A DNA stretch of 24,807 nt from a virus: IMG/VR virus record IMGVR_UViG_3300044858_002288, positions 1 through 24,807 of that record; one strand, written 5' to 3'. Both the position numbers and the translations under genes were made by a program. This document shows positions 5,270 to 24,514 of the stretch, piece by piece; position 1 is the first letter of the stretch, and every line of letters starts with the position of its first letter. The notes beneath the pieces were generated by a model. The model searched no databases. It was not told where the DNA came from and saw nothing but the letters and a program-made list of their open reading frames with translations.

Positions 5270-5818
5270 TTACGCGCCAGAGTCGACGACTCGACAGAGC
5301 GCGCGTGCGATGCAGATCGCGTCGGCTTCGTCTTGGTCGTCGAGGTCGGGCAGGATCGTCTGCGCGTACGCCATCGGCGCTTCCTTGCCGCCTTGCTTGA
5401 TCCCGATCAGCCGGCGCCACTCGGTCGGTTGCAAGCGGTGAACAAGGATCCACGGATAAGAGCGGAGGGCGAAGGCTTCGAGGTTGCCGATCGTGAGGGC
5501 GCCGAGGATCGCCTGACGCTTGAACCGGACGTAGGCTTCCTCTAGACCGACGCAGACGACGAGGCTGGAGTCTGTTACCCGATTGATCTCGGCCATTATG
5601 TGACGCCACGCTGCTTGCCGATTGCGAAGATCATCGCCGGTGTTGCTGACGTGCATCGTGCCGCTAGCAAGCAGCTCGCCGGTGTGAAGGATCATGACGG
5701 CGTACCCGATGCGGAGTGGACTGGCGTCCAGTCCGATGATGACGGTGTGAACGCCACCCGCTCCCACCAATGGATCATCTTGGAGGATGGGAGTGGGAGC
5801 GGGTGGCGAAACTGTCAT
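5270..5818 (-). CDS. RuvC-like Holliday-junction resolvase
   Basis: A 182-aa RNase H-fold nuclease predicted to cut four-way junctions made during replication and recombination. The first strand IIGLDASPLRIGYA carries D31. The second acidic site is in CVGLEEAY (E93/E94). The C-terminal acidic motif DDQDEADA (about 160-167) supplies the last carboxylates. This D-E-D layout and the length match phage RuvC proteins. The ATG at 5818 overlaps the previous gene as ATGA. It lies in the early operon beside the SSB-like and PrimPol genes. Confidence in the fold is high; junction specificity is inferred from the family. Confidence 0.83.
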   Translation of the reverse strand: MTVSPPAPTPILQDDPLVGAGGVHTVIIGLDASPLRIGYAVMILHTGELLASGTMHVSNTGDDLRNRQAAWRHIMAEINRVTDSSLVVCVGLEEAYVRFKRQAILGALTIGNLEAFALRSYPWILVHRLQPTEWRRLIGIKQGGKEAPMAYAQTILPDLDDQDEADAICIARALCRVVDSGA

Positions 5819-6327
5819 ACGGGCGCTTCGTCGACTTTGATCGTGCGACGTTTCGCCGGGATCATGGCTTCCAGCTGCTCGCGAATCTCGTCGGGAGCAT
5901 CCTCGGCATACTGCCACGCCTTCTGCGGTGTGACATGAGCGACCAGGGGCGCTACGTTGTCAACGGCTTCCCACGGGATTACCCCGTCGGCCGCAGCCGC
6001 TTCGAGCAGTTCGCGAATCTGTGCGGACGCGATGCCAGACACGGAACCACGGCTGATTGTCTCCGACGCCTTGCCTTGCGCCGTCGTGATCGCGCCGCCT
6101 GTTCGGCGTACGCGGTCAGCGAGCTCGGCGTTGACACCCTGCTCGATGTTCCGCGCCAGCGTTCGGAGCCTTTGCGTAACAATCGACCAGATCACCAAGT
6201 CATCATCGGTGGCGAGCGTAACGTCGAGCAGCTCTCCATCCGAAGTAATGACGTGGCGGTTCTCTGCGATGTTCTGGAGCGCGCCGACGGTTAGACCGCC
6301 GACGCGCACCGCGACTTCATTCGCCAC
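5815..6327 (-). CDS. Hypothetical early protein (170 aa)
   Basis: A 170-aa protein starting from GTG at 6327, whose first base is shared with the TAG of the SSB-like gene. It has a beta-rich N-terminus (VAVRVGGLTVGALQNIAENR), a helical middle (IWSIVTQRLRTLARNIEQGV) and a helical C-terminal part ending in the charged tail KRRTIKVDEAPV. No catalytic motif or Cys cluster is visible. I do not recognise it. Its place between SSB-like and RuvC genes suggests DNA metabolism. Confidence 0.7.
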   Translation of the reverse strand: MANEVAVRVGGLTVGALQNIAENRHVITSDGELLDVTLATDDDLVIWSIVTQRLRTLARNIEQGVNAELADRVRRTGGAITTAQGKASETISRGSVSGIASAQIRELLEAAAADGVIPWEAVDNVAPLVAHVTPQKAWQYAEDAPDEIREQLEAMIPAKRRTIKVDEAPV

Positions 6328-7164: not shown

Positions 7165-7349
7165 GCGCGACTCTGATCTATGTATCGTCTACGCGTAACC
7201 CAGCCGTTCAAGTCTGGGCGCTAGATCGTGGCGGCTATGTCGTCGTCGAGCGAGATAGACGACATGAGTTTGACTACCTTCCCGAAGCGCGTGCATATGC
7301 CTTTGCAAAGACTCGCACGATCAAAGCAGAGCGCAGCGTGAAAGCGTGA
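7161..7349 (+). CDS. Small hypothetical protein (62 aa)
   Basis: A 62-aa product starting MSATLIYVSSTRNPAVQVWA. Its ATG overlaps the previous stop as ATGA, and its stop overlaps the start region of the cytosine methyltransferase. It is predicted as a small beta-sheet followed by a basic helix (ARAYAFAKTRTIKAERSVKA). No family is recognised; tight coupling on both sides supports translation. Confidence 0.6.
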   Translation: MSATLIYVSSTRNPAVQVWALDRGGYVVVERDRRHEFDYLPEARAYAFAKTRTIKAERSVKA

Positions 7350-8149
7350 CACCGCTCACCGTTGGAAGCACCTTCACGGGTGTCGGCGGTGCCGACCTTG
7401 GCTTCGAGCAGGCAGGCTTCACGATCAGCTGGCAATGCGAGTTGGATGCGTGGAAGCGAAGTGTTCTCGCAGCGCATTGGCCAGACGTTCAGATCTTCGA
7501 CGACATCACGACCATGCTTGACCCGCCGCCCGTAGATATTCTGATTGGCGGCTTCCCATGCCAAGACCTCTCGGTCGCTGGCCAACGAAAGGGCTTCACC
7601 GGTGAACGATCCGTCCTCGCATTCGAGTTTCTCCGACTTGCAGAGTCTATTCGACCCCGCTGGCTTGTCTTGGAGAACGTACCCGGACTCCTTAGCAGCT
7701 CACAAGGCGCAGACTTCGCCCGACTCATCGACGAAGTGGTCGCGTGCGGGTACGGCGTGGCATGGCGGATTCTCGATGCCCGATACTTCGGCGTACCTCA
7801 AAGACGAAGGCGAGTGTTCATCGTTGCCCGTCGAACCGACGCTATCGTCGATTCTCCAGAGGCAAGTCGACTCGCGCTACGCGCTCTCCGCGAAAGCGGC
7901 AGCGGGGATATTGCGTCGGGCTGGCAAGCGTGGCAGGAAACTGCCCGAGGTGCTGGAGAAAGCATTGAAGGCAGTAGCAGCGTCGGAACCCACGGACGAA
8001 CAGACGAAACCCAAACCGGCACGCTAACCCGGATGTACGCCGAACAATCAGGACAAGACTTCGGGGGGGGGGCTGGAGTCGTGACAACATCTACAACGCC
8101 ACCGCAGCCTTCGGAGCCTGGACAGAAGACACAAAGGCAGGCGTCTTGA
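7346..8149 (+). CDS. DNA cytosine-5 methyltransferase, N-terminal catalytic part (frame-interrupted)
   Basis: This 267-aa frame carries the catalytic half of a C5-cytosine methyltransferase. It has SAM motif FTGVGGADLGFEQAG (10-24), catalytic GGFPCQDLS with C72, ENVPGL at 110-115 and QRRRRVFIVA at 152-161. It then enters the target-recognition region and meets a run of ten G (8063-8072). Past the run this frame yields low-complexity sequence and stops at 8149, while motifs IX and X continue in the -1 frame. That frame is open with sensible sequence from the G run onward. One extra G, or two fewer, would give a continuous enzyme of 463 or 462 aa, close to the usual family length. The start is a GTG at 7346, overlapping the previous stop. 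The interruption may be phase variation, programmed slippage or a homopolymer sequencing error. Confidence 0.85.
   Translation: MTPLTVGSTFTGVGGADLGFEQAGFTISWQCELDAWKRSVLAAHWPDVQIFDDITTMLDPPPVDILIGGFPCQDLSVAGQRKGFTGERSVLAFEFLRLAESIRPRWLVLENVPGLLSSSQGADFARLIDEVVACGYGVAWRILDARYFGVPQRRRRVFIVARRTDAIVDSPEASRLALRALRESGSGDIASGWQAWQETARGAGESIEGSSSVGTHGRTDETQTGTLTRMYAEQSGQDFGGGAGVVTTSTTPPQPSEPGQKTQRQAS
7602..8027 (+). CDS. Protein overprinted on the cytosine methyltransferase (141 aa)
   Basis: A frame different from the methyltransferase stays open here and gives protein-like sequence. It has GLSWRTYPDSL, then SPDSSTKWSRAGTAWHGGF, GECSSLP and YALSAKAAAGILRRAGKRGR followed by KLPEVLEKALKAVA. From memory, phage proteins with a WRT...S..W..SG...SSL..ILE...LS.rA..GILRRAekRGk.LP pattern are common near phage Dcm genes. 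I cannot search to confirm. The methyltransferase frame below this segment looks like the variable stretch after QRRRR in related enzymes, so both frames appear to follow known families. Starts available are GTG 7602, preceded by AAAGGG, and TTG 7545 (160 aa). Function unknown. A dual-coded region is my inference. Confidence 0.5.
   Translation: MNDPSSHSSFSDLQSLFDPAGLSWRTYPDSLAAHKAQTSPDSSTKWSRAGTAWHGGFSMPDTSAYLKDEGECSSLPVEPTLSSILQRQVDSRYALSAKAAAGILRRAGKRGRKLPEVLEKALKAVAASEPTDEQTKPKPAR
8063..8072 (+). repeat. Poly-G tract G10 inside the methyltransferase
   Basis: Ten consecutive G lie exactly where the reading frame of the cytosine methyltransferase is lost. Gain of one G or loss of two restores the frame to the downstream part. 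Long mononucleotide runs are classic slipped-strand mutation sites, and also classic error sites for sequencing. Confidence 0.9.
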
Positions 8150-8736
8150 GCAAGCGCGACTACAAATCCACGAATCACCTCCTTGTGACTGACGGGGGGG
8201 GGCTTGCATTCCGCAAGTCCAGAAGGGCGCAAAGCATGAATGACGATGAGACATGGGTCGAAGGCGATTACGCCAATACGCTCAACTCGTTTGACGCGGG
8301 AGACGTTAGGACGACGCACGCCATCATCGGACAGACATTCCCAATCGACGACGGGCGCGACCTTGAGAAGCACCAGAACGGCACAAGCATCGGTGCTGCT
8401 GGTGATCCTGCGTACACGATCGATAGGCAACAACGCCCAGCGGTCGCGCATTTGATCCCGTTCGATACCAACTTCTCAAATCAACAAGCACCGGGTGGCA
8501 ATACGGCCGCAACGCTCGACACGCGAGGGCAGCAGGGAGTCGCTGACCAGATGAGCGTCCGCCGTCTGACCCCGACGGAGTGCGAGCGGCTCATGGGTTG
8601 GCCTGACGAGTGGACGGCACCCGAAGGCGTGAAGGCGCCCGACTCGAAACGCTACGCAGCGTGTGGCGACGGTATCGTTGCGCCCGTCGCGTTCTGGATC
8701 GCAGACCGCATCCGCATGATCGAAGGAGAAGCATGA
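8146..8736 (+). CDS. DNA cytosine-5 methyltransferase, C-terminal part (recognition region, motifs IX-X)
   Basis: The 196-aa frame beginning at a weak TTG (8146) carries the rest of the enzyme. It has part of the target-recognition region (DETWVEGDYANTLNSFDAGD), motif IX VRRLTPTECERLMGWPDEW (138-156) and motif X YAACGDGIVAPVAFWIADRI (170-189). The same frame is open upstream to the G10 tract (from about 8071), reading GWSRDNIYNATAAFGAWTED, so the true protein very likely does not start at TTG. It alone cannot methylate because it lacks the SAM-binding and PC motifs. It could complement the N-terminal part in trans if both are made, but a single frame-restored enzyme is simpler. The stop overlaps the next ATG as ATGA. 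Confidence 0.8.
   Translation: MSKRDYKSTNHLLVTDGGGLAFRKSRRAQSMNDDETWVEGDYANTLNSFDAGDVRTTHAIIGQTFPIDDGRDLEKHQNGTSIGAAGDPAYTIDRQQRPAVAHLIPFDTNFSNQQAPGGNTAATLDTRGQQGVADQMSVRRLTPTECERLMGWPDEWTAPEGVKAPDSKRYAACGDGIVAPVAFWIADRIRMIEGEA
8194..8202 (+). repeat. Second poly-G tract (G9) in the same methyltransferase
   Basis: Nine consecutive G, encoding three glycines in VTDGGGLAF, lie about 120 bases after the first tract and in the same recognition region. Here the count is in frame with motifs IX and X. A one-base change would switch the downstream part off. Confidence 0.9.
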
Positions 8737-11072: not shown

Positions 11073-11924
11073 TTATTGTACGCGTACCGCCGCGCGGATG
11101 ACGGTCAGGCTACGCGTGCGGATCGCGACGCAGCCACCATTCGACTGACTACCCGAGTCGTCGTAAGACGTATTGGCCTCCACGGTCACGACCGAGTTCT
11201 TGCCGGGTCGCCACGTCTTTCCGCCAGCCTTGACGACTTGACCAGGCTTCCCGAGGGCGATGCCGATATGGTCGACCTCGGTGCCGTTCGAGCCGCCGAA
11301 GTCGAACAGGAGCGCGGTGCCTTTGACGATCGTCGTCTTTGATTGGGTAGCCAAGCCGTAAGCGCCACGCTCGGCGACTGCGCGGATCTCTGGCGTGTAG
11401 AGCGCGTTGTATTTGCCCTCACGTAGCCCGTACTTGGCGGCTGTCGAGCCTTCGCAGAGGAAGGCAGCAAACATCGCATACGCGCACCAGGCGTATCCCA
11501 TCTGGTAATAGTAGGCGGCGAGCTTGAGATCCTTACCGAGCATCGACAGCTGCGGCACGACGTTCGATCCGGCAGGCTTCTCCGACCAGCGCGCTACGTA
11601 CCAACCAACCATGCGGTCAGCGGCACGCTCGCCGAGGGTCAGCGACGGCAGCGGCTTCCGCTTACGCGCCGCGACACGGGCGCGCATCGCGACGGTCGGC
11701 TTCGTCTTGCCACTCATGTACGCCTGTAAGGTGGCGTCGTACGTCCCTGCGGTGTCTGCATAGCCCAGCAGGTACTTAGCCCTCTTGGCTGCGTTCGCCG
11801 TCACGGGGCCGTAAATGCCGTCTACGGCGGTCTTGGCTAGCACGCCATACTTGACGAGGTGCTCCTGCGCGAGCGCGACGCCGGTACCTTCGGTCAGCGG
11901 CGAGGTCAGGCGGAGGATCTTCAC
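11073..11924 (-). CDS. Endolysin: peptidoglycan-binding domain plus CHAP-like amidase
   Basis: A 283-aa lysis enzyme. Residues about 10-70 (EHLVKYG...VDGIYGPVTANAAKRAKYLLGY) form a PG-binding-1-type wall-binding domain. After a basic linker, the C-terminal domain shows a CHAP/NlpC-like catalytic layout: C147 in YAWCAYAMFAAF, H219 in TEVDHIGIALG and E249/N251 in VVTVEANTS. It should cut peptide or amide bonds of peptidoglycan. The start is GTG at 11924, in a GTGA overlap with the holin stop, so expression is coupled to the holin. The order XhlA-like, holin, endolysin makes this the main lysis cassette. Confidence 0.85.
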   Translation of the reverse strand: MKILRLTSPLTEGTGVALAQEHLVKYGVLAKTAVDGIYGPVTANAAKRAKYLLGYADTAGTYDATLQAYMSGKTKPTVAMRARVAARKRKPLPSLTLGERAADRMVGWYVARWSEKPAGSNVVPQLSMLGKDLKLAAYYYQMGYAWCAYAMFAAFLCEGSTAAKYGLREGKYNALYTPEIRAVAERGAYGLATQSKTTIVKGTALLFDFGGSNGTEVDHIGIALGKPGQVVKAGGKTWRPGKNSVVTVEANTSYDDSGSQSNGGCVAIRTRSLTVIRAAVRVQ

Positions 11925-12094
11925 GACCGGGCGGGATCGGTAACGAAGTACCCGGCAGCCGCGACGAGAATGGTAATGATGGCGCCTTGGACGACGGTCG
12001 GGATCTCGACGCCGGCGAGACTAGCGCCCCAGACGATGATGGTGACGAGCGCGGCAGCAAGAGCGGCGGCGGTGACTTTCGGCGAGATATGCAA
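11921..12094 (-). CDS. Holin (57 aa, two membrane helices)
   Basis: The product begins MHISPKVTAAALAAALVTII and has two hydrophobic helices (about 7-24 and 33-50) joined by the short turn GVEIPT, with a charged tail DPARS. This resembles small class II phage holins. I chose the TTG start at 12094 because AAGGGG lies six bases upstream, directly after the previous stop; a longer in-frame reading to 12130 lacks such a site. The stop overlaps the endolysin GTG, as expected for a holin-endolysin pair. It makes membrane lesions that release the endolysin. Confidence 0.78.
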   Translation of the reverse strand: MHISPKVTAAALAAALVTIIVWGASLAGVEIPTVVQGAIITILVAAAGYFVTDPARS

Positions 12095-12104
12095 GATGTT
12101 CCCC

Positions 12105-12338
12105 TTAGAGCAGATTCGTGACAACAGCACTAATGATACCCGTCACGGATGCGATACCGGCGATATAGGCCAGCGTTGCCCTGCGCGTCATCGTGCGCTG
12201 ATCCTCGCGCGCATCGACCTCGGCGCTGTGAACCTCTAGCGTCCGCAGCCTGCCGTTGAGGTCAGCCCGGTACTGGACGACCTCGATACGGAGGGATTCC
12301 ATCGCCCGATACAACCGCTCGACTTCAGCATCAGACAT
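12105..12338 (-). CDS. XhlA-like membrane-associated protein (77 aa)
   Basis: A 77-aa protein with an N-terminal coiled-coil-like helix (AEVERLYRAMESLRIEVVQY and RADLNGRLRTLEVHSAEV) and one C-terminal transmembrane helix (LAYIAGIASVTGIISAVVTNLL). This layout fits the XhlA/haemolysin-type accessory lysis proteins found with phage holins. Its stop lies ten bases before the holin start. It probably helps the holin permeabilise the membrane. The ATG at 12338 begins the lysis cassette, just beyond the invertible locus. Confidence 0.65.
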   Translation of the reverse strand: MSDAEVERLYRAMESLRIEVVQYRADLNGRLRTLEVHSAEVDAREDQRTMTRRATLAYIAGIASVTGIISAVVTNLL

Positions 12339-12379
12339 GACCGTAGTGTAATGGACTTAGTGGCAAGGTTCACCTACTG

Positions 12380-12437
12380 GCAGCCGGCGACGTCGCGACG
12401 GCTGCCGCTTGGAATGTGTTGACCAATGATGTGATTG
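12380..12437 (+). repeat. 58-bp inverted repeat, left copy
   Basis: This copy is a perfect reverse complement of 13371-13428. It encodes AGDVATAAAWNVLTNDVI in the frame of the silent cassette. The identity includes every third codon position and ends abruptly on both sides, which points to active inversion or recent conversion rather than old duplication. The first 26 bases form an imperfect dyad (9 of 13 pairs). Confidence 0.95.
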
Positions 12438-12850
12438 CGCTTCGTGAGGCTTCGACGTATATTGCTACCCAAACGCGGGCTACTTCATACTCGGCTACTT
12501 CGACTACGGTTGCTGGTGCGGCTGATGTGTTTGCATCTGATCTTACTTTTACCGCAGTAAGCGGGAAACTATACGCTTTTGAGTTGACAGCAGGGCATTT
12601 GCTGAATGGAAGCACAAGCGCCAACGTTGATGTTCATCTAGTAAATGGAGCGGGGACTAGTCTCGGCACTATGGCGTTTCTCAGAAGCGGTGCTGGTGCT
12701 ATATGGGTACCTCTCAATCTGAAACATCTCTACGCAGCGGGATCGGGAAGCGTATCGTTCAACATACGAGTAGTCTCAAGTACGTCGGATGGCACACTTG
12801 ATCCCGGCGGTTTCCTGACTCGTCTTGCCGTCTACGGACCAATCGACTAA
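12380..12850 (+). pseudogene. Silent alternative tail-fibre C-terminal cassette
   Basis: From the left repeat the frame continues as ALREASTYIATQTRATSYSA and ends GFLTRLAVYGPID. The body is Ser/Thr/Gly-rich and beta-strand-like (LYAFELTAGHLLNG, NVDVHLVNGAGTSLGTMAF, SVSFNIRVV), as in receptor-binding tips. It has no start codon for the shared N-terminus: in frame upstream there is a stop at 12344 and no ATG before the repeat. No promoter or ribosome site is seen. It is therefore a stored, unexpressed cassette rather than a decayed gene, as it carries no internal stop or frameshift. Confidence 0.75.
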
Positions 12851-12915
12851 CCTAGCGTCTCCCGCCGGGTTGCTTGCGACTCGACACGATTCCCCAACTT
12901 CCCGAGCGTGACGGG

Positions 12916-13455
12916 TTAGGCGGGTACTTCCATCACGGTGATTGTGCTGGACGCAGCGTAGGCGGTGTCACCGGATCGCCTGTTTAGATATAGGGTTCCT
13001 GCCGTTGTGAGCCATTGTAGTTTGTAGGTTGTTGCGGTTGTTGCTGCTGGTGTGTCTAGGAAGGTGTTGCTCATGTGCATGAGCGTTTGGTTTGGTGTTG
13101 CGTATGCGCCCGTTGCAAACATTCCGTTGTTTGCTGTTGTGCCACCGGTACCAGCTCCGATAGTTGTCGATCCTCTGACTAGGCGAATAACAGCGTCGCC
13201 CGTTGTAGATCCGAAGTATGCGCTGAACGTGACGAGGATGAGGCTAGTGGCGGATGATGGTGTGATGTTGACAGTTAGTCCGGTGATGTCGCCGAAGGTT
13301 GCGGATGTCGTGGTTTGTGTGATGTTCGTGACGGTGGTGCTTTTGACGTTGACGAGTACGGCTCGCGTATCAATCACATCATTGGTCAACACATTCCAAG
13401 CGGCAGCCGTCGCGACGTCGCCGGCTGCAACGGTTCCAGGTTGTATATACGCCAT
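12916..13455 (-). CDS. Tail fibre / receptor-binding protein, expressed version
   Basis: A 179-aa structural protein beginning MAYIQPGTVAAGDVATAAAW. A constant N-terminal segment (1-28) is encoded mostly by the right inverted repeat. The variable part is beta-rich and Thr/Ser/Gly-heavy (GLTVNITPSSATSLILVTFS, DAVIRLVRGSTTIGAGTGG, YKLQWLTTAGTLYLNRRSGD) and ends ITVMEVPA. The body resembles the silent cassette in layout: a strand pair, then VRLVxGSTxIG/VHLVNGAGTSLG. The gene follows the minor tail gene and precedes the lysis genes, the usual place for a tail-tip receptor-binding protein. The segment before the ATG (AGGCAGG) is a modest ribosome site. Confidence 0.72.
   Translation of the reverse strand: MAYIQPGTVAAGDVATAAAWNVLTNDVIDTRAVLVNVKSTTVTNITQTTTSATFGDITGLTVNITPSSATSLILVTFSAYFGSTTGDAVIRLVRGSTTIGAGTGGTTANNGMFATGAYATPNQTLMHMSNTFLDTPAATTATTYKLQWLTTAGTLYLNRRSGDTAYAASSTITVMEVPA
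13371..13428 (-). repeat. 58-bp inverted repeat, right copy
   Basis: The reverse complement of 12380-12437 without mismatch, located inside the expressed fibre gene at codons 10-29. Beyond the repeat the two loci share no obvious similarity at the DNA level. Confidence 0.95.
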
Positions 13456-13474: not shown

Positions 13475-14788
13475 CTAGAGTCCGAATGTCGACGTGCCAA
13501 TAATACTAAACGGGTACTGCGCCGCAACTGCCGTGCCACTCGTCACGGTACCGTCAGCCCAGACCATCGCAGCCGTGTCCGTCGACGCCAGCGAGAACGT
13601 GACCTTGTGCGACATCGGGCGGATGTCGTTACGGATGCCGATGATCTGCACGTTCTTCGAGATCCGATCGCCGATCCGATTCGGCTGGTACTCCAGCAGG
13701 ATGATGTCTGCGATCTCTAGCGCCAGCACTTTCGTCTGGTCAGCGGTGCCGAGTCCGGCGAGCTCGACGCCCATCGTGTCGAAGCGCAGGTCTGGCTCGT
13801 CATATTTGGCTACTAGGTACTTCGCGAGCGCGAGAGCATTCGGATCGGTATCGATCAGCAGCCCGTTGTAGTCGAGCGAAGTGATGCCGTACTCACTCTG
13901 CGACGCTGATCCCGCAGCCGTCTGGATCGCGGTGCCGCCAAGCCGCGCGATGCTCACGCGGTTATACAAGAGCTCGGTGCCATAGGACACGGTAATGTCG
14001 GTGTACGGGATCGTCGTGCCGCCAGCATCCGAGAACGTGACGGTGCCGATGGTCGCCCCTGCGTTCCGATTCTTGAAGGTGACAGCGTTGGCCTTCGACA
14101 TGAACAACTGACCAGGCTCGGACGCCTCGATCAGCTGCAAGTAACCGAGCGCATCCGTGCCAGCATCAACGACGTCGGCGAGTAGCGTCTGCGCGCCCGT
14201 GTCAATATTGCGAAGCGCGGCAGGCCAATCGATCTCGCTGCGGTTCAAGATCGCGTTGATACGTGCGCCAGACGTTTGACTCGTCGCCGTGTGCGCTGCG
14301 ATCTGCTGACCACCGAACGTGATGAATCCGTCAGCGGCAACCGCGCCAGCCGTCGACTCGCCCGAGATGTTGTAATCCAAGCCCCAGTCCTCGATGATCC
14401 CGGTGAATTGCACGGCAGTCGACGCGGCGATGATCGTCGAGATCTTCAGGTTCCGCCGCGGCTTGATATCCGGGTAGTAGGGGCTGGCTTCGTAGAACGG
14501 ATCAAACGCGCGATCCTGATTGTTGAAGGTGATGTTGGCGACGCCGGTCTGGTAACGATCCAACTCGCGCGACCTGCCGCGCGTGATCGACACCGAACGC
14601 ACTCGATCCGTCACGTCATAGTCCAGCGTCCCGCCGAAACGGTATTCGGTATTGTCGAAGATGCTCTGCGGATTCGCAGCTATAGCCGCTGGCGTATTCG
14701 TCGCCGTCCCGTCAGCCCAGAGAAAGAACGGACCACCTTGGCTCGACGTGTCAAACCCGATCTGGACTAGCAGGCTCGGCGTAGCCAA
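13475..14788 (-). CDS. Minor tail protein (437 aa)
   Basis: A 437-aa protein with beta-rich sequence. VTDRVRSVSITRGRSRELDR and GVANITFNNQDRAFDPFYEA near residues 60-100 are characteristic of tail-tip/minor tail proteins of actinophages, as is NLKISTIIAASTAVQFTGII. The centre carries SEPGQLFMSKANAVTFKNR, found in the same family. The C-terminus repeats an N-terminal phrase (WADGTA at about 24-29 and MVWADGTVTSGTA near 413). The start is TTG at 14788, one base after the tape-measure stop, with AAGGAAG upstream. It probably caps the tail tube and carries the fibre encoded next. Confidence 0.78.
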   Translation of the reverse strand: MATPSLLVQIGFDTSSQGGPFFLWADGTATNTPAAIAANPQSIFDNTEYRFGGTLDYDVTDRVRSVSITRGRSRELDRYQTGVANITFNNQDRAFDPFYEASPYYPDIKPRRNLKISTIIAASTAVQFTGIIEDWGLDYNISGESTAGAVAADGFITFGGQQIAAHTATSQTSGARINAILNRSEIDWPAALRNIDTGAQTLLADVVDAGTDALGYLQLIEASEPGQLFMSKANAVTFKNRNAGATIGTVTFSDAGGTTIPYTDITVSYGTELLYNRVSIARLGGTAIQTAAGSASQSEYGITSLDYNGLLIDTDPNALALAKYLVAKYDEPDLRFDTMGVELAGLGTADQTKVLALEIADIILLEYQPNRIGDRISKNVQIIGIRNDIRPMSHKVTFSLASTDTAAMVWADGTVTSGTAVAAQYPFSIIGTSTFGL

Positions 14789-17245: not shown

Positions 17246-17869
17246 ATGAGCAGCATGAGTAACCTCGCAATTCGCTACGACGAGATCAAAGCGACCCGCC
17301 CCACCGTCGCGCAGATCAAAGCAATGATAAAGACGACGACTGACCTAGACGAGTTGTATGTCTTGGAGTCAGTCATGCAAGACATCGCGGACGAACAGCC
17401 CGTCGATATGGGCGCCGAGTATCTAGCAAACGGCTGGACGATCATCGGCGTCGGCGGCGACAAGCGACCCGTCGGATCGTGGCGCGTTGGTGGCTGGAAC
17501 CGAATTAGCCCGACGAGTTCGCGGAAAAAAGTCTCCAGCAAAAGTGCTGGCGTCGGAATCGTCACGGGTCCCAGCGGTCTAGTCATCATCGACCTCGATA
17601 CTCACGAAGCGATGAGCGAATGGGTCGATCGCTTCGGCGCGATCACCACGCGCACCGCACACACGCCACGCGGTCTGCACATCTACTACACGTCACCCGA
17701 GGCAAGCAGCCTGAAGCCGCGGACCAACGTCCTGCCTAACATCGACGTGCGAGCCGGAGAGTCTTACGTCGTCGCACCGGGCAGCACTCTCGACGGTGGC
17801 AGCTATGCGTGGGGAAACGATAATCCAATTGAGGATCTACCAGCCGACGTGTTGCGCCTGATCCGCTAG
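17246..17869 (+). CDS. Stand-alone PrimPol-domain protein
   Basis: A 207-aa protein with a PrimPol domain similar in motif layout to the N-terminal half of the large primase-helicase. It has GVGIVTGPSGLVIIDLD with D116/D118, RGLHIYY with H145, and NIDVRAGESYVVAP (165-178). It lacks the ATPase half and the N-terminal CxC zinc motif, and has its own helical N-terminal extension (1-60). AGGAG lies six bases before the ATG. It runs rightward inside the leftward late operon and its stop overlaps the stop of the gp10-like gene by 4 bp. The active-site residues are kept, so it may prime or extend DNA or RNA. Alternatively it could compete with, or defend against, another replicon. Confidence 0.82.
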   Translation: MSSMSNLAIRYDEIKATRPTVAQIKAMIKTTTDLDELYVLESVMQDIADEQPVDMGAEYLANGWTIIGVGGDKRPVGSWRVGGWNRISPTSSRKKVSSKSAGVGIVTGPSGLVIIDLDTHEAMSEWVDRFGAITTRTAHTPRGLHIYYTSPEASSLKPRTNVLPNIDVRAGESYVVAPGSTLDGGSYAWGNDNPIEDLPADVLRLIR

Positions 17870-20477: not shown

Positions 20478-21020
20478 CTACAGCGCCGCAGATAGGTTCT
20501 CGCCGTGGAAGCGATAGACCCACGTCACGAACGGAACGCACACGAAGCGAGCGCCGGCGTCGAGGGCGCGTATCCAGAAATCCCAATCCTCAAATCCGTG
20601 CGCCGCGTCCGTCCGCCAGCCGAGCTCGCTGCATAGTTCGGTGCGGATCAGCGTGGTTGCGGGGATGTAGTTGCCAGCGCGTAGCCTGTCCGCGTCGAAG
20701 GGTGCCGAAGGATTCCAACCACCTCGCCCAGTCACTTCGCAGTAGGAATACACCACGTCGGCATCAGTATGCCCGGCGAGCAACTCTAGATGACGCGGCA
20801 GCATCAGATCATCATCGGCAATCTGCGCGACCCACTCCGCACCAGTCTCGATGGCAGCCGGTAGCATCGAGTTGAGGCAGGCTGCTGGACCGATTCGCTG
20901 ATAGTCCAGGTGGATGATGTGGGCGACGGGCTGGAGTGTTTGCGCCATGACTGACGCGACGCACTCGGATCGAAGATCAACGCGGCTCGGCAGGCTCGGT
21001 GTGACGACAACTACGCCCAT
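20478..21020 (-). CDS. GT2-type glycosyltransferase (small)
   Basis: A 180-aa GT-A-fold glycosyltransferase beginning MGVVVVTPSLPSRVDLRSEC. The metal/nucleotide-sugar motif is ADDD at 68-71 (QIADDDLMLPRHLE), and a later acceptor-site motif is GFEDWDFWIRALDAG. The ATG at 21020 overlaps the upstream stop by ten bases; an in-frame start further upstream is less likely. It is the last gene of a five-gene sugar-modification island and lies ten bases before the connector gene. It should transfer a sugar to a glycan or protein; donor and acceptor are not known. Confidence 0.8.
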   Translation of the reverse strand: MGVVVVTPSLPSRVDLRSECVASVMAQTLQPVAHIIHLDYQRIGPAACLNSMLPAAIETGAEWVAQIADDDLMLPRHLELLAGHTDADVVYSYCEVTGRGGWNPSAPFDADRLRAGNYIPATTLIRTELCSELGWRTDAAHGFEDWDFWIRALDAGARFVCVPFVTWVYRFHGENLSAAL

Positions 21021-21658
21021 AACCGCCGCGTGCCTGCCTGCCGATCCCTCAACCCAGCCCAACGCTCCCAGACGGACTCGGATAGAACGCTTGCAGAATA
21101 CTCCGCCGGCAGACTACGATCCTTGCTGGTGTTCGATCCGAGCAGCCGGGTCGGAGATCCCGCCACCTTTGCAAACGGATCAACATCCTTGACGACGCTG
21201 GAGTTCAATCCGACCATTGCCCTCTCGCCAATGATGATCCACGGATGCGTCACGACGCCCTGCCCGAAGGTTGCCTCGTCATCGATGATCGTGAAGCCCC
21301 CGAGGATGCTGAAGCTTCCCATCGTGACACCGCGTCCAAGTTGCGAATCGTGAGCAATATGCGCGCCAGCCATAAGCAGCGAATCAGCACCGACGATCGT
21401 TGGGCGCACGATGCCCTGGTGGATCTGGACAAACTCTCGGATGCACGCACCATCGCCAATCGTTACGCCCTCGGCGCGATGCTTGGAGTCGAGCGAGCAG
21501 GGATACGATCCGCGATGCTGCGCCGGCGCCCCAATCACCGCATACGAACCAACGTAGACGCGATCGCCAATCGTCAACGGTCCCGTCAGGATCGCCGTGT
21601 CGGCAATCTCACAGCCTTCGCCGATCGTAACCGCGCCGTGTGTCTCGTCGATAATCAT
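21011..21658 (-). CDS. LpxA-like left-handed beta-helix acyltransferase
   Basis: A 215-aa protein built of hexapeptide repeats. It shows LpxA-type landmarks: IGAPAQHRG (42-50), IREFVQIHQG (73-82) and AGAHIAHDSQLG (97-108), with H100 and H103 in the position of the LpxA catalytic histidine. Members transfer an acyl chain to a nucleotide-linked amino sugar. Here the sugar may be the one made by the neighbouring dehydratase. Such an enzyme is unusual in an actinophage because lipid A is a Gram-negative product; related sugar N-acyltransferases also occur in O-antigen and glycoprotein pathways. It overlaps the dehydratase gene as ATGA. Confidence 0.78.
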   Translation of the reverse strand: MIIDETHGAVTIGEGCEIADTAILTGPLTIGDRVYVGSYAVIGAPAQHRGSYPCSLDSKHRAEGVTIGDGACIREFVQIHQGIVRPTIVGADSLLMAGAHIAHDSQLGRGVTMGSFSILGGFTIIDDEATFGQGVVTHPWIIIGERAMVGLNSSVVKDVDPFAKVAGSPTRLLGSNTSKDRSLPAEYSASVLSESVWERWAGLRDRQAGTRRLWA

Positions 21659-22485
21659 GCCGCCCCCGGATCATGGGGGGATTCAATGCGGACGATATTG
21701 GGAACGATGGTGGTATGTAGGGTCTCGCTGGCAGCGTGCAGAGGCTCATCCATTCGATCACCACGCCGCCGAGGCATACCTACCCGCACGCGATCGGGAT
21801 AGAGCACACGGGCAATTGAGAACATATCTCGCGGCGATCCAGGAGCGACCGCATATCTCCCCGAAGGTAGCACCGCGGCCCAGAGCAGGAGTGCTAGAGC
21901 CTCGTTGAGCGAAACAAAGTAGCGCTCGCACATTGTCACCGGGATCGGATCGGTCTCTGGCAGCGCCTTCCATATCTCAAACACGTTGCCGGACGACTCG
22001 GGTACGTTGTAAAAACGCGCCACGCTGCCGCCGGCGTTGAGGGTTATGCGCTCAGCAACTAGCTTAGTTGCCCCATATGCCGTTTCCGGGTCGCACGATT
22101 TGCATGTGCTGGCGGTGATTACGCGCGCGCTGGTCGAGCGGACTACATTCGCGGTGCCAGTGATGTTTATGGTTGCTGCGTCGAGTGGGTCGATCTCTCC
22201 GTCTGGCGCGTGCTTGGCACCCGCAAGGTGGAATACCAGCGTGGGCTTGACCCGCGCCATCACATCGTCGAGCATCGTGCGGTTCGTCACGTCACAATCG
22301 CCGATGTCTGTTCCGATCGTAGACACACCGCAATCATTGAGCAGCATGGTGATCGCCGATCCGATGCTGCCATCCGCCCCGGTGACAAGTACGCGGTGCC
22401 TTTGCAACTCATGCAGCGGAGTATCTATCTCTGGTGGATGCTCTGGCCGTCCGAGGATCGCTTCGATATTTGGGAAAGTGGTCAC
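21655..22485 (-). CDS. CapD-like NAD-dependent sugar 4,6-dehydratase/epimerase
   Basis: A 276-aa short-chain-dehydrogenase-fold enzyme. GADGSIG at 36-42 is the NAD-binding motif. HLAGAKHAP at 86-94 resembles the HLAAxKHVP motif of CapD/FlaA1 UDP-GlcNAc 4,6-dehydratases. YGATK at 137-141 has the Tyr-Lys catalytic pair, and FVSLNEALALLLWAA follows the family's late FxSxxEA motif. It should make a 4-keto-6-deoxy sugar nucleotide. GTG start at 22485 in a GTGA overlap with the upstream glycosyltransferase. No aminotransferase is nearby, so later steps may use host enzymes. Confidence 0.8.
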   Translation of the reverse strand: MTTFPNIEAILGRPEHPPEIDTPLHELQRHRVLVTGADGSIGSAITMLLNDCGVSTIGTDIGDCDVTNRTMLDDVMARVKPTLVFHLAGAKHAPDGEIDPLDAATINITGTANVVRSTSARVITASTCKSCDPETAYGATKLVAERITLNAGGSVARFYNVPESSGNVFEIWKALPETDPIPVTMCERYFVSLNEALALLLWAAVLPSGRYAVAPGSPRDMFSIARVLYPDRVRVGMPRRRGDRMDEPLHAASETLHTTIVPNIVRIESPHDPGAA

Positions 22486-23183
22486 TCGCCGCGGCCGTTA
22501 TGCCATGAGTTCGCGAGCCTCGTCGATAACCGCCAGTCAGCATCGCGCGGCAACTCGTTATCGGCAAGACCGTCCCAGCGTTCCTCAAAGTAACCGGCGT
22601 TCGCTGCGTGTGTTCGCGCATTGTGCGCCTTCAGATGCGGGGACGCTTCGATGGTGCTGGAGTTGTCGTGCTGAACGTGAGCCGACGATCCGGCGAAGCC
22701 GATGCCGCAGACTTGCGCGCGTCGCTGCCAGTCCATGTCTTCGCAGTACGCTGGGTAGAATCGCTCGCAGAACAAGCCGACCTCGGCAATGGCTCGGCTG
22801 CTGATCCAAGTGCAGCACCATCGAGGGTTGCCGGCTTGGAGAACGTCTACTCCGTCAGTCTCGCCGGCGAACACCGAGAACCCGCCATCCGTGAAGTACG
22901 CGTCCGAGTTCAGCAGCAACCAGCCGTCCGATTCTGGTGTCGCCTTTATCCCTAGATTCCAACTCGTCGCAACGCCGAGGTTTGACGGCATCGTCAGCAG
23001 ATACGTCTTATCAATGCCTTCCATCTGCCCTTCGGTCTGCCACATTCGTAGATCATCGTCACCGATTCCATCGCCATTGTCGATAATGATTAGCCGCTCG
23101 ACTTCGCCGAGGCTGCCGATCGCACGCTCCAGCAGGTCGTACCGGTTCAAGACCGGGATGATGACGGTCGCTAGTCGGCTCAT
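22482..23183 (-). CDS. GT2-type glycosyltransferase (rhamnosyltransferase-like)
   Basis: A 233-aa GT-A glycosyltransferase starting MSRLATVIIPVLNRYDLLER. It has the WbbL-type features LLTMPSNLGVATSWNLGIK and LLLNSDAYFTDGGF (NSD at 92-94 as the metal site). AYCEDMDWQRRAQVCG matches the ED.D...R motif of rhamnosyl- and related transferases. The ATG overlaps the upstream GT stop as ATGA. It should add a sugar to the glycan made by this island. Confidence 0.85.
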   Translation of the reverse strand: MSRLATVIIPVLNRYDLLERAIGSLGEVERLIIIDNGDGIGDDDLRMWQTEGQMEGIDKTYLLTMPSNLGVATSWNLGIKATPESDGWLLLNSDAYFTDGGFSVFAGETDGVDVLQAGNPRWCCTWISSRAIAEVGLFCERFYPAYCEDMDWQRRAQVCGIGFAGSSAHVQHDNSSTIEASPHLKAHNARTHAANAGYFEERWDGLADNELPRDADWRLSTRLANSWHNGRGE

Positions 23184-24442
23184 GCCGCGGCTGGATCCCA
23201 CGCGGCAAGCTGCTCCAACGCGGGACGCCAATAGTTTGCGTAGACAACATCCGCATCGTAGTCGGCAGCGAAGTCGACCGCCTGCTGGCTCGGTCCGCGC
23301 TCGGCAGCGTACGCTTCCTCTAGCGCGTCAACGATGCGCGGGATCATTGGGGTGGCGAACCACGCGTCTTGGTACGGGTCCCAGAGCGGCTGTACCTCGA
23401 CCGCCCATCCATCGCCAACCAATTCCGATTGGGCTGTCCAGTCAGAAACTATCACTCTTGTGCCACAGGCCTGCGCCTCGACTACAGGCACACCGAAGCC
23501 CTCGCCAGCCGATGTAGCCAGCAACACGTCGGCGGCGCTGTAGAGCGACGCTAGCGCCTGCTGTGGCAGGTTCATCCGATAGAGGTACTGGTCGACAAAG
23601 CAGACCTGATTCTCCGGGATACCGCACCCGCGAATCAGGGCGCGCAAGTCTACGCCAGTCGCAATCGCCGACGCCTCGGTGTGAAGGTAAAGGATCGCAT
23701 CAGGATGATTGGCGGCGAAGATTGAGAACGCCAACAGGTTCTCGCCGAAGCACTTGCGGACTGGCGTCCTGCCCTTATTCGCGGAGTTCATCATCACCAC
23801 GAAGCGATCAGACTTGACGCCCATCAGTTCATGACCCGTGACAAGGGTGCCATCCGCATCGGCGAATGATGGTGTCGGCTTGAAGACCGGCTCGACAGCG
23901 TGCGGAACATAGATCGACTCGATGCCATCGTCCGCCATCATCCGCTCGGCAAATCGGCTCATCGCGATCGGCTTGACGTTCGGACGCTTCAACCATTGCA
24001 GCACCTTCGGCGGTGCTGGCTGGTGATCGATTGGCGCCCACGCGGCGATCTTCGGGATCTGCTTTATGCCCGGATTCTCTAGCGCCCACACGTCAAACAA
24101 GATCACGACCAGGCTGGGGAGCTCGGTCCCGTGCGCCCAATGCTGCGCGTGCGCGTTCAAGATATCATCGCTATAACCGGAGATCCCGCATGGATACAGC
24201 TTTACCCCACCATTCCAAGTAGTCTCCGCGCCCTGCAAGCCATAGTTGCACGCGATTGCTACTTCGTGCTGATCGCGCGTTAGGCGCTGAACAACCTGCG
24301 CCGTCTGGACGCCGTAGCCTGTAGCAGAAAATGGAGCGTTCGAGGCCCAAAGCACGCGCTGCCGCGTCACGCCCTCGGCTTGTGGTGGTGCTGGTGGCTT
24401 TGTGTGCTTCGCCTGTTGGCGTCGCGTCGCGCGATTCGACAT
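23180..24442 (-). CDS. GT4-type glycosyltransferase
   Basis: A 420-aa retaining GT-B glycosyltransferase. A basic N-terminus (MSNRATRRQQAKHTKPPAPP) precedes a domain with LWASNAPFSATGYGVQTAQV. The C-terminal nucleotide-sugar-binding domain has the signature SAGEGFGVPVVEAQACGTRV. The ATG at 24442 lies next to GGGGGAG and directly downstream of the terminator; a longer reading to 24502 would start inside the terminator stem, so I reject it. It opens the sugar-modification island. Acceptor unknown; it could be a virion protein or the host surface. Confidence 0.83.
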   Translation of the reverse strand: MSNRATRRQQAKHTKPPAPPQAEGVTRQRVLWASNAPFSATGYGVQTAQVVQRLTRDQHEVAIACNYGLQGAETTWNGGVKLYPCGISGYSDDILNAHAQHWAHGTELPSLVVILFDVWALENPGIKQIPKIAAWAPIDHQPAPPKVLQWLKRPNVKPIAMSRFAERMMADDGIESIYVPHAVEPVFKPTPSFADADGTLVTGHELMGVKSDRFVVMMNSANKGRTPVRKCFGENLLAFSIFAANHPDAILYLHTEASAIATGVDLRALIRGCGIPENQVCFVDQYLYRMNLPQQALASLYSAADVLLATSAGEGFGVPVVEAQACGTRVIVSDWTAQSELVGDGWAVEVQPLWDPYQDAWFATPMIPRIVDALEEAYAAERGPSQQAVDFAADYDADVVYANYWRPALEQLAAWDPAAA

Positions 24443-24454
24443 ACTCCCCCGTCC

Positions 24455-24499
24455 AAAAAAAATAGTGGCTACCCGACAAACGATCTGCCGGGTAGCCAC
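24455..24499 (-). terminator. Intrinsic terminator behind the major capsid gene
   Basis: On the minus strand a perfect 11-bp stem (GTGGCTACCCG at 24499-24489 pairing with CGGGTAGCCAC at 24475-24465) is followed by TATTTTTTTT. It lies 15 bases after the capsid stop and 12 bases before the first sugar gene. It should end most capsid transcripts, so the genes beyond depend on read-through, antitermination or an unseen promoter. Confidence 0.9.
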
Positions 24500-24514
24500 C
24501 ATTCTACCTATCGA

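Follow-up and report, generated by a model that had tools for sequence, protein, structure and literature searches.

The segment at positions 12380–13428 of this viral DNA is a real receptor-binding switch, which would act as a two-position invertible switch for the C-terminal head of a tail-fibre protein. The window, as we call the whole stretch analysed here, is the complete IMG/VR record IMGVR_UViG_3300044858_002288 (24,807 bp). In the reading that we prefer, to which we give a probability of roughly 60%, this two-head switch is flipped by homology-driven inversion with gene conversion. The constant start of the gene, 9 codons long, would stay outside the invertible segment, the inverted-repeat arm would encode a helical neck common to both versions, and each cassette would supply a different beta-rich head; a flip of the segment would swap a 179-aa fibre for a 165-aa one. 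The flip itself would proceed by homologous recombination or annealing between arms of 40–62 bp, gene conversion would keep those arms identical, and host and/or phage recombination functions, among them a RuvC-like resolvase, would serve the flip with no dedicated site-specific invertase. An initial annotation had proposed an invertible tail-fibre switch with two cassettes, and that proposal now has the support of several lines of evidence: haplotypes recovered independently, spacers in both directions, cassettes that swap between active and silent positions, purifying selection on silent cassettes and a lectin-like fold of the active form.

The two arms, at 12380–12437 (plus strand, silent side) and 13371–13428 (minus strand, active side), are 58 nt long, 100% complementary and separated by 933 nt. 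The next-best inverted repeat anywhere in these 24.8 kb reaches 29 nt at 76%, so a chance origin of the 58-nt arms is negligible. The expressed gene is a minus-strand ORF of 179 aa (13455–12916) that starts outside the right-hand arm, crosses it in codons 10–29 and enters one cassette. From the left-hand arm, which encodes AAGDVATAAAWNVLTNDVI and has homologous counterparts in all switch-bearing relatives, a plus-strand frame in phase with the arm runs open for 156 codons (12380–12847) to a stop at 12848–12850. This silent C-terminal cassette (12380–12850) has no start codon: in-frame ATG, GTG and TTG are absent from the preceding stop to the arm, and the outer flank of the arm (12339–12379), which is kept in relatives, supplies none. 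The stop codons of the two cassettes face each other 65 bp apart, across a spacer at 12851–12915. The sequence thus arranges a constant N-terminus with two alternative C-terminal cassettes, one joined to the start codon at a time, and the protein predicted after inversion has 9 + 156 = 165 aa in place of 179 aa. The initial annotation had described the perfect repeats, the codons that they occupy, the reading phases and both protein lengths correctly, as well as a rightward cassette lacking a start codon and internal stops. Our scan of the segment found no sigma-70-type promoter where 0.8 would be expected by chance; when applied to an actinophage, such a scan gives weak evidence.

A conserved tail protein directly upstream (13475–14788, minus strand), 88–98% identical in the near group, forms the fixed anchor of the locus, and a conserved 77-aa gene lies downstream of the switch (12105–12338, minus strand), followed by a holin (11921–12130, minus strand; phrog_9284, E 2e-10) and an endolysin (11073–11924, minus strand; phrog_21825, E 6e-11). 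With the tail protein as query, we found 28 relatives in IMG/VR. The exact arm pattern matched no record in that database, and a wobble-tolerant pattern recovered ten further contigs, from different datasets, that together with the window make up eight haplotypes. In these contigs, the arm lies downstream of the tail protein at identical codons (MAYVTPGTV followed by AAGDVATAAAWNV), and nine of the ten hold both inverted arms (40–62 bp) with two convergent cassettes; the other, L011, stops before the second arm. The outer edge of the arm falls at the same codons in every haplotype, each of which has two cassettes and never more. The cassettes themselves are very different, to the point that over all sixteen the only invariant residues are those encoded by the arm. 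Neither the entire 179-aa protein nor the silent cassette retrieved any close relative when used as a query, because the cassettes are too divergent.

The expressed gene (12916–13455) appears from phage tail-fibre matches and from its model to consist of 9 constant residues, an arm-encoded helix and a TNF-like lectin head. In the predicted structure (mean pLDDT 69.8), a low-confidence helix at residues 11–31 covers the arm and is joined by a beta sandwich. A Foldseek search with this model matched TNF-like lectins, namely the N-terminal lectin of BC2L-C and PLTL (blood-group sugars), with E about 2e-5 and TM by target of 0.63–0.75, along with the C-terminal domain of chlamydial Pgp3, the lambda gpJ tip and many phage proteins, tail fibres among them. 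The active cassette as modelled has a jelly-roll fold that resembles the TNF-like trimeric lectins BC2L-C-N and PLTL. By sequence, it has matches in P-SSP7, pelagiphages and a Limnohabitans phage, in regions that are either tail fibre or without annotation, and other cassettes of the group have tail-fibre and minor-tail PHROG matches. It is likely a receptor-binding head, with binding suggested by the fold and by tail-fibre homology. Prediction of both structures had been put forward earlier as a check; the model of the silent cassette was poor (pLDDT 47), too poor for a structure search. The window's silent cassette had no relative in the phage collection.

Comparison among haplotypes shows that inversion has really happened, since the spacer occurs both ways round, cassettes are active in some phages and silent in others, and the phylogeny demands repeated flips. 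The spacer (56–74 bp in relatives) is conserved and not palindromic, and in most haplotypes it is ~90% identical although the adjoining cassettes are unrelated; from its direction one can tell which way the switch is set. In an alignment to the window, the spacer points the same way in the window, L004, L005, L012 and L028 and the opposite way in L009, L013 and L015, so that the flipped form, which the initial annotation had proposed to look for in related genomes, is present in three of eight haplotypes. As a separate matter, the spacer is unsupported as a strong terminator hairpin (z −0.7 and −1.2). Orientation could not be traced on the tail-gene tree, whose resolution was too low, and on the downstream-gene tree, taken instead, at least two changes of spacer direction are forced on supported branches. 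Among the cassettes, the silent one of L005 is homologous to the active one of L012 (72% aa, E 8e-87), the active one of L005 to the silent one of L015 (70% aa), and the silent one of L005 to the active one of L015 (38%). This reciprocal active/silent homology and the opposite spacers give L005 and L015 the look of a flipped pair in which both cassettes and the spacer have been exchanged. Both orientations were found between related phages only. The earlier suggestion that exchange is active or recent finds support on the evolutionary time scale only, from flips between haplotypes.

The arms behave in a way that bears on how the segment is flipped. Within a phage, arm partners have 0 mismatches over 38 nt in all eight haplotypes, compared with a mean of 13 mismatches when arms are paired at random between phages (permutation fraction 0.0006, or 0.005 without the window). 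Over the same group, the arm sequence moves: the arms of the window depart from the rest at 4–5 of 9.7 synonymous sites within 12 codons, and their synonymous difference (0.41–0.52) is no lower than that of the flank gene (0.26–0.42). Among the arms outside the window, only two synonymous sites vary over the first 36 nt. The flank would lead one to expect more, and a DNA-level constraint on those arms is possible. Arms that keep their identity to the partner while their sequence drifts are better accounted for by inversion through homology, coupled to gene conversion, than by a fixed recombinase site, because a site-specific enzyme would keep the sequence constant and, acting alone, would not homogenise the arms.

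We regard it as unlikely that the flip of this switch is instead the work of a site-specific invertase supplied in trans by the host and directed to a site within the arm. Such service has been proposed for the Bifidobacterium phages Bb423phi2 and 689b-1, in which an 8-bp inversion has no recombinase nearby (PMC6109161). Serine-invertase systems (Gin/Cin/Min) have inverted crossover sites that are imperfect dyads of about 26 bp. A weak, imperfect 26-bp dyad (12-2-12, 9/12 matches) lies exactly at the fixed outer arm edge of our locus, with 8–9/12 in switch arms versus 3–7 at that place in switchless relatives, and the limited variation of arms outside the window would also suit a recognised site. 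However, the dyad is not clearly above what codon choice alone yields (P = 0.06 for at least 9 matches and 0.30 for at least 8) and its sequence varies between phages, the 4–5 synonymous changes of the window are shared by both arms and spread across the putative site, and reciprocal site-specific exchange alone would not homogenise the arms within each phage.

The serine recombinase family PF00239, at a cutoff of E ≤ 0.1, was matched in 0/22 and 0/14 group records, and the positive controls did match; the tyrosine recombinase family PF00589 had no match in any group record scanned, and none beside the cassettes, and the IS110-family enzyme PF02371 was matched in 0/22 group records, with control genomes matching for both. 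Relatives reach beyond the capsid gene to the terminase, and in L078 the window's PrimPol gene is followed by a methyltransferase, an HNH gene (both named by eye) and the terminase, which closes the map. When the records are put side by side, a complete gene map of ~33 kb results, tiled over strains rather than drawn from one genome. The serine or tyrosine invertase for which the initial annotation had proposed a search of the rest of the genome was not found in the records that tile it; since the map combines different strains, a recombinase might nevertheless be present in one phage or another. A diversity-generating retroelement was considered separately and rejected, reverse transcriptase (PF00078) being matched in 0/15 records.

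What the genome does encode is a RuvC-like Holliday-junction resolvase (5270–5917, minus strand; phrog_827, E 1e-4), a candidate part of phage homologous recombination that is also found in four relatives (E 6.5e-7 for one genome). We think it improbable that one of the small genes without an assigned function encodes a phage recombinase of a family not yet recognised, and that this enzyme flips the switch. Several ORFs of the window indeed have no family match, but serine, tyrosine and IS110-type families are all unmatched in the tiling records, and only the 65-bp spacer lies between the cassettes. In classical switches, by contrast, the enzyme gene sits beside or between the cassettes.

The silent cassettes bear the marks of use. 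They are intact in all eight haplotypes, open over 156–199 codons, and silent-versus-active dN/dS is ~0.24–0.25 for the two closest pairs, a rough value with synonymous distances near 1 or above; it is no higher than that between active cassettes (0.34–0.36). Under neutrality, the window's silent cassette would be expected to have about 1–2 stops at 0.10–0.15 changes per site, a distance comparable to that of the flank gene. Since all eight frames are open and dN/dS is this low, the silent cassettes are, by these sequence measures, used and under purifying selection.

Among the relatives, L018 is without a silent cassette, has its spacer joined to the outer flank (about 11311+1137 to +1230) and carries two tandem fibre genes, and L007 and L025 retain a 17-bp remnant of the silent-side arm and nothing more of it (in L007, about 4851+960 to +990); these look like lost switches. 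Other cassette combinations show that single cassettes are replaced too, with DHETRI-type and EAARD-type cassettes adjoining different spacer ends in different phages. From the remnants and the single-cassette replacements, the switch is probably old in this phage group and sometimes lost. The same observations, together with the fact that no near-identical phages with opposite orientation were found among the relatives, could be read as signs of a slow evolutionary archive, in which the silent cassette would serve as a reserve, seldom expressed, and would be inverted or traded when phages now and then recombine at the arms and spacer. We consider this very improbable, given that every silent cassette is intact with a dN/dS of about 0.24 and that the arms are identical to each other in every haplotype. 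Moreover, 10 of 26 relative contigs end −402 to +29 nt from the near arm edge, as a heterogeneous population would give; this suggests mixed populations at that point, with other causes possible. Finally, a chimeric inverted join, conceivable for a metagenome contig whose exact phage has one record only, is already refuted as an explanation by independent contigs from different datasets, all ten of which show this architecture at the corresponding position although their sequences and edges differ.

Its probable engine, inversion through homology together with gene conversion, would set this locus apart from the best-known switches. Like the Mu G segment (Gin) and the P1 C segment (Cin), it has a constant fibre start outside and two facing C-terminal parts inside an invertible segment. 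However, no serine invertase is found in the tiled genome, the arms are 40–62 bp of drifting homology rather than a fixed crossover site, and the phage is an actinophage-like siphovirus. The analogy to Mu, P1 and R64 drawn in the initial annotation is therefore functional and not mechanistic, because the tiling records lack serine, tyrosine and IS110-type recombinases. The phiH1, phiCh1 and ChaoS9 haloviruses also have invertible alternative tail-fibre parts, an oppositely oriented pair of genes, but with an integrase-type recombinase between them (PMC6471424), whereas no recombinase was found here.

Inversion in actinobacterial phages is itself established, contrary to the earlier impression that no such switch had been described for a phage of this type. 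In Bifidobacterium prophages, the Rin shufflon exchanges receptor-binding C-termini by inversion; it has several cassettes and 11-bp rix sites, with a tyrosine recombinase encoded next to them (PMC6109161). The present locus would likewise exchange receptor-binding C-termini by inversion in a probably actinobacterial phage, but with two cassettes, long arms and no recombinase found. In Bb423phi2 and 689b-1, a segment of ~500 bp in virion genes inverts at an 8-bp sequence without a neighbouring recombinase, and the authors, in whose account this and Rin are the first such systems to be found in phages that infect actinobacteria, thought service in trans possible (PMC6109161). Within the open-licence literature, our locus is nearest in kind to this 8-bp inversion, with which it shares a probable actinophage setting and the lack of a recombinase beside the segment; it differs in having 40–62-bp arms that evolve in concert across eight haplotypes, where theirs has 8 bp and a gene function that is unknown.

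The closest cultured relative, by synteny and by the tail protein (36% identity), is Pontimonas phage phiPsal1 (MG835450), which has no integrase but differs in lacking the inverted repeat and switch at the corresponding locus. It has been described as lytic, with no sign of integration (PMC6106888). A profile of the tail protein, run against genomes of bacteria and archaea, found no prophage; the host is probably actinobacterial, by analogy with phiPsal1 only. The genome and its relatives show several further features. Most of the relatives retrieved with the small terminase (L066–L077) have their first base no more than 27 nt from the matched start of that gene, L078 being the joined form, which suggests fixed physical genome ends just upstream of the small terminase. 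A stand-alone PrimPol N-terminal domain (17246–17869, plus strand) lies on the opposite strand among the tail genes, besides the full PrimPol-helicase encoded at 101–1954, and a C5-cytosine methyltransferase (7346–8736, plus strand) appears split into overlapping ORFs at 7346–8149 and 8146–8736. Between the capsid and neck genes lies a putative sugar-modification cluster (20478–24502, minus strand) of glycosyltransferases and epimerase-like and acyltransferase-like genes; the names were given by eye and from resemblance to phiPsal1, which has glycosyltransferases at the matching position.

To our knowledge, known phage host-range switches depend on a dedicated recombinase. We see an even chance that these phages represent a small aquatic actinophage lineage that does without an invertase, with arms of 40–62 bp flipped by general homologous recombination, a pool of cassettes reassorted between phages at the arms and spacer, and a locus repeatedly lost with arm remnants left behind. 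If repeats alone suffice, any phage could gain such a switch by inverted duplication, and searches based on invertase genes would miss switches of this kind. The direction of the spacer offers a sequence-only marker of the switch that can be read in existing metagenomes. Homology-driven inversion would also explain how small, lytic-looking aquatic phages hold two host-recognition heads in ~1 kb.
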